NCBI GenBank assembly: GCA_017545585.1
Contig: JAFWMK010000004.1
Coordinates: forward strand, 1 to 41,304
Direction: 5' to 3'
DNA from: Candidatus Saccharimonadota bacterium
GTDB taxonomy: Bacteria; Patescibacteriota; Saccharimonadia; Saccharimonadales; Saccharimonadaceae
DNA length: 41,304 nt
A program made the translations under genes and the position numbers. This document shows positions 1-2,815 of the stretch, one piece after another. The notes under the pieces were generated by a model. The model was given only the letters and a program-made list of their open reading frames with translations. It had not been told where the DNA came from and did no database searches. The stretch's first letter is position 1. The number at the start of each line of letters is the position of its first letter.

Positions 1-140
1 AGATATTGACAATGCTGTCTGGGAGATTAATAATAGACCTAGAAAACGATTAGACTGGCATAGTCCACAGTGGGTAGCTAGACAAAAAGGCATACTCAAG
101 CAATTTAGAAAGGGTCGCAATTGGAACTAGAATTCAGCCA
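1..140 (+). mobile_element. Right end of an IS30-family insertion sequence (partial)
   Basis: The window opens inside an insertion sequence. The transposase C-terminus ends at 130. The following bases to about 140 read as a probable IS30-type terminal inverted repeat (roughly 113-140, TCGCAATTGGAACTAG then AATTCAGCC). The outer boundary is inferred from where homology of the neighbouring leftward gene to its paralogue stops. The left end lies outside the window, so the full element and its target duplication cannot be seen. Confidence 0.6.
2..130 (+). CDS. IS30-family transposase, C-terminal fragment
   Basis: An open frame of 42 codons ends with TAG at 128-130; its start is outside the window. 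The peptide contains NNRPRKRLDW followed by HSPQWVA, the typical C-terminal block of IS30-family DDE transposases just after the catalytic glutamate helix. These enzymes cut and join IS ends as copy-out/paste-in transposases. Only the tail is present, so activity cannot be judged. The adjacent leftward gene appears to have been cut by this insertion. Confidence 0.8.
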   Translation, partial: DIDNAVWEINNRPRKRLDWHSPQWVARQKGILKQFRKGRNWN

Positions 141-415
141 GTCATAAGTAGCGTATATCCGTACGGAGCAGTAGTAGTGACATAAGCCGAGAGATCTGCA
201 GTTTCTAGAGAAGCGGTAGAATCCAAATTTAAAAGCACAGAATTGTCCGGAATCGTCACGTCTAGAGCAATACTATTTATCTGAGCAGTAATTTCTGCGT
301 TGCCGGATGAATTTGCCCAGGCCGCATGGCTGCTGACCATAAGAGGCACTATTAGCGCCGCGAATATATATATATATATATATCTATATTCGTGAGTCAT
401 TTTACATTTAGTCAT
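134..415 (-). pseudogene. Secreted protein paralogue truncated by the IS30 element
   Basis: A 93-residue leftward frame starts at ATG 413-415 behind an AAAGGGG ribosome-binding site. It has a signal-peptide-like segment (residues about 16-34, ending ..SSHAAWA). Residues about 35-92 align with the upstream gene at 430-1005: N-S-G-x-AE, V-TIPDNS versus VTPDNF, VTT-(A/S)P-GY. Homology ends at GYTLLMT, exactly where the IS inverted repeat begins, and the TGA stop lies inside the IS end. The paralogue continues about 90 residues further. I infer a tandem duplicate whose 3' half was removed by insertion. A (AT)10 tract lies in its signal-peptide codons. Function unknown. Confidence 0.65.
364..383. 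repeat. (AT)10 dinucleotide microsatellite in the signal-peptide coding region
   Basis: Ten uninterrupted AT units lie at codons about 11-17 of the truncated secreted protein and encode alternating Tyr-Ile. The tract is bordered by CGAATA and TATTCG, so it can also fold as a hairpin. A change of one unit would shift the reading frame, which is the layout of a phase-variation tract, although this gene copy is already truncated. Confidence 0.85.
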
Positions 416-1076: not shown

Positions 1077-1106
1077 TTGATTTTTTGAGCGAGATATGAC
1101 TATAAT
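1077..1106 (+). promoter_or_regulatory. Promoter of the cutinase/VWA gene
   Basis: TTGATT, an 18-nt spacer and TATAAT at 1101-1106, followed by AAAGGAG and ATG 1133. It diverges from the leftward promoter in the same 127-bp gap. Confidence 0.7.
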
Positions 1107-1132
1107 TTTCAAACTAAACAGAAAGGAGATTC

Positions 1133-2815
1133 ATGCCGAAAAAAATCGGTCTATGGGTGGCAACAATACTAACCATAAATCTACTGGTACCAGCGGTGGC
1201 TTTTAGAGAAAAATCAGTTAGCGCGATAAGTTGTCCGGATGTAAAAATGATTTTTGCTAGAGGGTCGGGAGAAAAAAGGTGGGTAGATCAAAATTATCTA
1301 ACCTTTAGGTCGGAACTGGAGAGCAAACTAAAATTGACGGACCTTGAATACGAGTTTTTGGATTTGGATTATCCGGCAATCGATGTAGGAAATATCTGGA
1401 CACTTCTAACTACTTTTGTAGGACGAGGTGACGCCTATGAATTCGGCGCAAGCATAGACATAGGAGCCGAAAAACTAGTGCGCGAGATTGACAGCGCTAG
1501 TTGTCCGGACACGAAATTTGTAGTGGCCGGATATTCGCAAGGGGCGATGGTAATATCAAAAGCAGCGCCGCGATTGCCAGCAGATCGAATTATTTATGCA
1601 GCAACTTTTGGTGATCCAAAAATCTATCTTCCGGAAGGTTCTGGTGTGATGCCGGAGGCTTGCAGAGGCGCCAATCTCTCTAACTACCGAATTTACGTGC
1701 CGGACTGCCGAGTGTACGAAGGAATGCTAGGATCGTATCGACCGTATCAACCAGAAGCCCTGGTAGACAAAATGGGAACCTGGTGCAACCATACAGATAT
1801 TTTTTGTTCGACACATCTAAGTATCAAGAGTCATACTTCGTATGTCTCGGACGGATTATATGCGGATGCGTCTAAGCTAATTTTCGACAAAATCGTATCC
1901 GCTTTTGGAATTAAAAATAGCTATGTGTCGCTTCATGATACGGCGATTTTGATTGATTCGACTGGGTCGATGAGTGGACTGATTTCTCAATACAAAAATG
2001 AAGCTTTGAATCTAGCAAAGCAAACTTTTGAAAACGACGGCAGGGTGGCACTTTATGATTATCGCGATGTGGCAGATAGATACAAACCGAGGGAACGATG
2101 TAATTTTGAAACTTGTACGCCCGAAAATTTCCAGGCTAAGCTTAACGAGATTACCGTAAGCGGAGGAGGAGATACACCGGAGTCGCTACTTTCAGCAGGG
2201 CTCAAAATGATGCAGAGACTAGACTGGAAATATGGTTCAACCAAATCCGTGGTGGTCTTGACCGACGCATCCTATCATAGCCCAGACCTCGATGGCACAA
2301 CTTTTGATGATTTGGTGAACCTGAGTAAAAAAATCGATCCAGTCAATTTTTATTTTGTGGTGCCGAGTGGCGTGATGGGTTCGTATCAGGCCCTAGCGAC
2401 AGCGACGGACGGAAAAGTAGTGTCGTCAACTTCCGATCTCTCGGCCTTGACGTCTACGATTATTTCTAGATACGATAGTCTACCGCGAGTGGAGGATTTC
2501 GACGTAGATACCACAGATTTGCCAGAAATTACCAGTAGCGATTTTGAAAAAATCTCAGAAACGAGCATACAAATAAAATGGAATAATACGGGTACAAAGA
2601 CCCTAGTAGCCTTGAACGATTTTGTACTTGGAGTGACGGAAGAAAATGAAATTGTTCTGAATGATCTAGATTTTGCCAGAAAAAACACGGTCACACTAGT
2701 ACCTTTAAATGAAACTAGACGAGGCCGAGGTGTCAATTTGAATATTTCGAGTGCTTCAAATGTCGGGCGTGGAGATTTAGTGATTCCAAAAGCCCCTAAC
2801 ACTGGGAGGCGGTAA
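1133..2815 (+). CDS. Secreted cutinase-family esterase fused to a von Willebrand A domain
   Basis: 560 residues with a signal peptide (about 5-23). Residues about 33-250 match the cutinase fold: FARGSGE, nucleophile elbow GYSQGA (Ser135), then the C-x-x-x-D-x-x-C block with Asp222 and the downstream His234. All three triad positions are present. Residues about 268-455 form a VWA domain with MIDAS DSTGS (275-279), a Thr in GGGDTPES and VVLTDAS. The tail ends APNTG-RR and stops, like a P-x-TG sortase motif lacking its membrane helix. Cutinases hydrolyse ester bonds in lipids or cutin-like polymers and are typical of Actinobacteria and fungi. A role on host envelope lipids is inference. The 3' end overlaps the convergent gene by 20 bp. 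Confidence 0.85.
   Translation: MPKKIGLWVATILTINLLVPAVAFREKSVSAISCPDVKMIFARGSGEKRWVDQNYLTFRSELESKLKLTDLEYEFLDLDYPAIDVGNIWTLLTTFVGRGDAYEFGASIDIGAEKLVREIDSASCPDTKFVVAGYSQGAMVISKAAPRLPADRIIYAATFGDPKIYLPEGSGVMPEACRGANLSNYRIYVPDCRVYEGMLGSYRPYQPEALVDKMGTWCNHTDIFCSTHLSIKSHTSYVSDGLYADASKLIFDKIVSAFGIKNSYVSLHDTAILIDSTGSMSGLISQYKNEALNLAKQTFENDGRVALYDYRDVADRYKPRERCNFETCTPENFQAKLNEITVSGGGDTPESLLSAGLKMMQRLDWKYGSTKSVVVLTDASYHSPDLDGTTFDDLVNLSKKIDPVNFYFVVPSGVMGSYQALATATDGKVVSSTSDLSALTSTIISRYDSLPRVEDFDVDTTDLPEITSSDFEKISETSIQIKWNNTGTKTLVALNDFVLGVTEENEIVLNDLDFARKNTVTLVPLNETRRGRGVNLNISSASNVGRGDLVIPKAPNTGRR

Follow-up and report, generated by a model that had tools for sequence, protein, structure and literature searches.

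An exported cutinase-VWA protein of Nanosyncoccus Saccharibacteria and its conserved anchorless PNTG tail, a candidate substitute for a membrane anchor

Saccharibacteria of the genus Nanosyncoccus encode an exported cutinase-family protein with a short conserved C-terminal tail and no membrane helix, and the same tail occurs on unrelated exported proteins of the genus, so that it appears, from comparison of their sequences, to be a portable, genus-restricted substitute for a membrane anchor. The gene lies on the forward strand of the 41,304-nucleotide stretch of DNA analysed here (the window), and its predicted 560-aa product comprises a Sec signal peptide, a cutinase domain, an integrin-beta-like VWA domain and a small beta domain (Table 1). 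A preliminary description of the window had proposed that a cutinase and a MIDAS-type VWA domain are combined in one exported protein of a Saccharibacterium, and this is supported both by Pfam matches above cut-off to the two domains and by the signal peptide, which looks cleavable when orthologues are compared. The interest of the protein rests on its exchangeable anchorless tail, and not on the cutinase itself.

Table 1. Features of the cutinase-VWA locus, in window positions
Feature	Positions	Strand	Basis
Cutinase-VWA gene, stop included	1133..2815	+	ORF, ATG start, 560 aa
Promoter-like TTGATT (1077-1082)-N18-TATAAT (1101-1106) and Shine-Dalgarno AAGGAG (1123-1128)	1077..1128	+	Sequence reading, predicted
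Signal peptide, residues 1-31; probable cleavage after SVSA	1133..1225	+	Sequence; AxA right before SCPD in most orthologues
Cutinase domain, residues 33-255; Ser135, Asp222, His234	1229..1897	+	Pfam, fold match, triad conservation
Integrin-beta-like VWA domain, residues 264-448; MIDAS DSTGS 275-279, E350, D378	1922..2476	+	Pfam, fold match, conservation
Small C-terminal beta domain, residues 463-540	2519..2752	+	Predicted strands 466-538; PKD and/or fibronectin-III-like domains at this place in homologues
Anchorless C-terminal tail IPKAPNTGRR; P555 and G558 invariant	2783..2812	+	Alignment; pLDDT <50 at 542-560
Convergent 67-aa ORF overlapping the tail codons	2796..2999	-	Conserved neighbour; overlap itself not conserved

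The protein is a member of the cutinase family (PF01083, CE5-like) by profile, catalytic triad, cysteine pairs and alpha/beta hydrolase fold. The Pfam profile matches residues 33-252 with E=2.4e-22 (80.1 bits against a cut-off of 25.9), and cutinases of solved structure also match the protein by sequence. Ser135 (within GYSQG), Asp222 and His234 occur in this order and are identical in 96 of 96 genus members, so that the three catalytic positions named in the preliminary description hold throughout the orthologues; the four canonical cutinase cysteines (C34, C124, C218 and C225, with predicted pairing) are kept in all 96 as well. In a structure model built on 30 orthologues (mean pLDDT 81.8, pTM 0.76), residues 33-255 superpose on acetylxylan esterase 1bs9, which is among the nearest folds (Z 19.8), on the cutinase-like protein 2czq (Z 19.4) and on Rv3802c of Mycobacterium (5w95, Z 19.3), and S135 sits between a strand (128-134) and a helix (136-147), in the place of a nucleophile elbow; the expected cutinase fold is thus recovered by structure prediction. 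We note that the rows of the fold search are mostly integrins, and that the absence of a fold from them carries no meaning. The mycobacterial cutinase-like proteins (Culp, Rv3802c) have domain, fold and triad in common with the Nanosyncoccus protein, but they have no VWA domain and no such tail.

The second domain is a MIDAS-type, integrin-beta-like VWA domain, as had been supposed, with putative ligand binding. Residues 272-387 match VWA_4 (PF25106; E=1.6e-10, above the curated cut-off), and residues 264-448 of the model superpose on the I domain of integrin beta3, 3ze2 (3ze2_D), with Z 22.4 and rmsd 2.1 over 182 aligned residues. The metal-site residues are well conserved, with D275 present in 95, S279 in 94, E350 in 90 and D378 in 88 of the 96 genus members, and the segment D347-E350 reads D-x-P-E, which we take to be like that of integrin beta I domains. 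Fold and MIDAS-type residues are therefore those of the integrin domains, from which the Nanosyncoccus domain differs in being bacterial and in being joined to an esterase.

The cutinase-VWA gene is a core gene of the ruminant-gut Saccharibacteria of the genus Nanosyncoccus. The protein is found in 34 of 36 genomes of the genus, counting the source genome (549 kb, 76% complete), and an order-wide sample gives a Cutinase match in 39 of its 43 members of the genus; elsewhere in the order the family has a scattered distribution (15 of 143 genera), and 5 of 287 genomes sampled across the phylum have it. Named orthologues are mostly from Saccharibacteria of ruminant digestive tracts, including Ca. 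Nanosyncoccus alces, and the genus name used here for the source genome rests on kinship with them. In 50-62 of 80 contigs the gene has typA, tatD and the small convergent gene as its neighbours, which argues for an inherited core gene within the genus and against a recent arrival. Upstream, on the reverse strand, there are two adjacent exported ORFs at window positions 134-415 and 430-1005 with alike N-terminal segments (SGNAEITAQ / GSAELQATV); the signal peptide of the shorter (134-415) is encoded by an (AT)n run near 363-381, and the longer (430-1005) has a homologue in only one of 80 orthologous loci. The start of the contig (1-130, forward strand) looks like the C-terminal end of what is presumably an IS30-type transposase (NNRPRKRLDWHSPQWVA).

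The C-terminus reads ...IPKAPNTGRR-stop, with no hydrophobic segment beyond, and the likeness to a PxTG signal that the preliminary description had pointed out extends to all of the orthologues. A PxTG-type motif is present near the end of 79 of 79 complete named orthologues (PNTG in 53 and PDTG in 15, with A or S in place of T in a few); it lies no more than seven residues from the end in 78 of these, usually with exactly two residues following, and a membrane helix after the motif is found in none of the 79. A lysine, arginine or histidine follows the glycine in 71 tails. When the sequences are aligned on the motif, [IV]-P-K-A-P-N-T-G carries 2.5-4.3 bits per residue, compared with about 0.4-1.1 in the preceding 20 residues, and the tail codons vary synonymously, with all four proline and all four glycine codons in use; both features point to selection on the protein. 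In two cutinase-VWA orthologues, L228 (in genome G314) and L201, PNTG is followed by about 18 to more than 60 hydrophilic residues.

In most homologues beyond the genus, the C-terminus is a membrane helix with basic residues. Relatives with a helix behind the motif, for which the preliminary description had suggested a search, do exist; for example, the Arthrobacter homologue ends in LASTG, a helix and RRRR, and a homologue from the same family as the source genome (L239) ends in PKTG and a helix. The Nanosyncoccus tail shares the P-[ND]-T-G core and the basic end with canonical LPXTG/LAXTG cell-wall sorting signals, but unlike these it has no hydrophobic helix between motif and basic residues. 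Because the helix was looked for and is absent, the protein is not a canonical sortase substrate, but it may work like one.

It had been suggested that this end is a sorting signal cut off where the convergent gene overlaps, but the helix-less tail turns out to be the conserved genus-wide form. Truncation by the overlapping gene was rejected, as the motif is conserved and the tail is unchanged at a locus (L135) where the convergent gene ends about 640 bases downstream; a frameshift into a helix after the tail was also rejected, a hydrophobic alternative frame being present at only 3 of 79 loci. The tail might also be a functionless vestige of a canonical sorting signal that the convergent gene or a deletion has shortened. 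This would agree with the existence of helix-bearing homologues and with the overlap of tail codons and convergent gene at this locus, but it is very improbable in view of the strong conservation at the protein level amid synonymous codon changes, the same tail at loci where the convergent gene lies far off, and the repeated exchange and presence of the tail on unrelated proteins.

A search of 108 genus genomes with the DNA pattern P[ND][TS]G[KR]x-stop gave 38 matches, compared with five for a reversed control, and the tail is also present on an unrelated lipase-3-like exported hydrolase and, once, on a Fib_succ-like exported protein. This last protein (L110, in genome G353, ending at ~1521), which matches Fib_succ_major and CBM_X2 weakly, has the end ENIKAPNTGRR. 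Of 106 genus genomes, 34 encode the lipase-3-like family, for the most part at 56-63% identity, and among its 29 complete ends there are 9 with the tail, 19 with a membrane helix and one with neither. In a phylogeny of the protein core, the tail label changes five times on the best tree, two of these changes being required by well-supported branches; the AU test rejects a single tail clade (p=0.0003), and one tail-bearing lipase (L323) groups with five helix sequences (100/99). The numbers of tail and helix ends, together with the rejection of a single tail origin, suggest that tail and helix replace each other. We rejected the tail as an order-wide feature, since all 14 pattern matches outside the genus (about 220 genomes) lie in frames of at most 32 aa. 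Many tail proteins per genome were likewise rejected, with one clear case each in the source genome and in Ca. N. alces (G001); both of these genomes also encode several ordinary PDTG/PNTG proteins with a helix.

Most simply, the tail would take the place of the helix in localising the protein, with a sortase as its probable partner and the envelope as the probable site of attachment. A sortase family scores above cut-off in 60 of 60 genomes checked, and the His, Cys and Arg motifs are readable in that of the source genome (G000:C9:23233-23634). No sortase type going with the tail in particular was seen among the genomes checked for sortase; a dedicated short sortase (about 170 aa) was not supported as the partner, as Ca. 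N. alces (G001) has the tail but two sortases in longer frames. Sortase recognition without a helix is the leading idea because the core of the tail equals the PxTG motif of the genus and the end is basic and disordered, and purified sortases can act on soluble proteins that carry such a tag. The protein would be exported via Sec and stabilised by disulfides, as a serine esterase coupled to an integrin-beta-like MIDAS domain, and the VWA domain would keep the enzyme attached to its target. In Saccharibacteria of other groups, and likewise in Arthrobacter, a C-terminal membrane helix would retain the protein on the producing cell, sometimes behind a sortase motif; in Nanosyncoccus, with the helix gone, the ten-residue [IV]PKAPNTG[KR][KR]-COOH would take over anchoring as a flexible, sortase-type recognition tag. 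We put at about even the chances that the protein is an exported cutinase-family esterase with a VWA domain whose tail is a sortase-type tag that is processed in the absence of a membrane helix. The helix by which canonical sortase substrates must be kept at the membrane is absent here; the tail might instead signal release or serve stability or binding; and 8 of the 79 tails have no lysine, arginine or histidine after the glycine, while L201 and L228 have longer ends.

The main rival to a sortase tag is loss of the helix to release the enzyme in soluble form, with the tail as a sortase-independent element that, for example, serves binding or stability or is recognised by a surface receptor. 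The lack of a helix in all 79 orthologues and the apparently cleavable signal peptide are consistent with release, and the tail is disordered, and so exposed, in the model. We nevertheless consider release somewhat unlikely, as the P-[ND]-T-G core is that of the helix-bearing PxTG proteins of the genus, and the replacement of helices by the tail in the lipase family is a better fit to anchoring. If the tail is indeed a sortase-type tag, a sortase might attach soluble exported enzymes ending in PKAPNTG[KR][KR] to an acceptor once they have left the cell, possibly one on the neighbouring partner cell; this proposal is speculative and, in our judgement, doubtful, but if true the episymbiont could mount its own esterase on the surface of its host.

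As judged by sequence matches, the cutinase-VWA fusion is not peculiar to this organism and is wider than the genus. Several other families of Saccharibacteria have cutinases with VWA-like, PKD and fibronectin-like domains, Rhodococcus plasmids encode cutinase-VWA proteins, and an Arthrobacter plasmid from marmot gut encodes a cutinase-VWA-PKD protein with a full LASTG anchor. The plasmid protein of Arthrobacter sp. zg-Y1110 (NZ_CP104273.1, about 311808-314324, of which the PLSDB annotation covers only the 3' part) has the same order of cutinase, VWA, PKD and FN3-like domains, and differs from the Nanosyncoccus protein in its PKD domain and in its full anchor of LASTG, membrane helix and RRRR. 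The 'cutinase family proteins' of Rhodococcus plasmids (WP_231783644 and WP_192378962) are, like the Nanosyncoccus protein, exported, with cutinase followed by VWA, but they belong to a distant cutinase branch and have neither PNTG tail nor helix.

The 40-sequence tree samples Actinobacteria thinly, from plasmids only, and contains several long branches. In it the Arthrobacter sequence falls together with two other genera from the source genome's family (95/90), and exchange of the gene between Saccharibacteria and Actinobacteria, in one direction or the other, is therefore likely; acquisition from an actinobacterial host, as the preliminary description had suggested, is one possibility. The Nanosyncoccus sequences form one side of a weak branch (64/87), and a topology that keeps the whole family together to the exclusion of Arthrobacter is not rejected (p=0.188). 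A Corynebacterium plasmid match (L220) was excluded from all analyses. A phage origin through LysB was rejected, with distant matches only (E about 1e-2 to 1e-3) and one partial match in IMG/VR.

In another genus of the same family, g32 (L236 in G277, L237 in G172, L238 in G281 and L239 in G203), the cutinase gene contains in-frame TGA codons. Those inspected by eye lie where homologues have tryptophan, and one position is common to three species (E*RQF/REF). TGA terminates ordinary ORFs in the g32 genomes and is not seen within tRNA synthetases, which argues against genome-wide UGA recoding; the in-frame TGA thus looks specific to the cutinase gene, and may reflect readthrough or decay. UGA as tryptophan has been reported in another class of Patescibacteriota (2026 paper, PMC13092985).

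The probable substrates of the cutinase domain are ester lipids of a partner cell, such as phospholipids or glycerides, which we favour over plant polymers since homologues are found far outside ruminant lineages; the host mycolate-type esters raised in the preliminary description are a hypothetical substrate. It could be argued that the enzyme acts on rumen plant material (cutin, acetylated xylan) and not on a bacterial partner, since close named orthologues with a stated site are from ruminant digestive tracts and acetylxylan esterase is among the nearest folds. We think this improbable, as fused homologues are also present in other Saccharibacteria families and in Actinobacteria, the fold is also that of Rv3802c from Mycobacterium, and cutinases of mycobacteria have activity on lipids and phospholipids (PMC3699616). 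In the library searched, the papers naming cutinase with Saccharibacteria or Patescibacteria deal, by title and abstract, with plastics, gut or fruit, and we found none that pairs cutinase with 'VWA domain'.

The gene is thus a genus-wide candidate for an exported esterase and adhesin in the means by which ultra-small episymbionts attack and hold their hosts, and its tail would be a short C-terminal tag that has been swapped with membrane anchors in the course of evolution. Processing of the tag by a sortase, if it occurs, would alter the definition of a sorting signal and, with it, the prediction of surface proteins.
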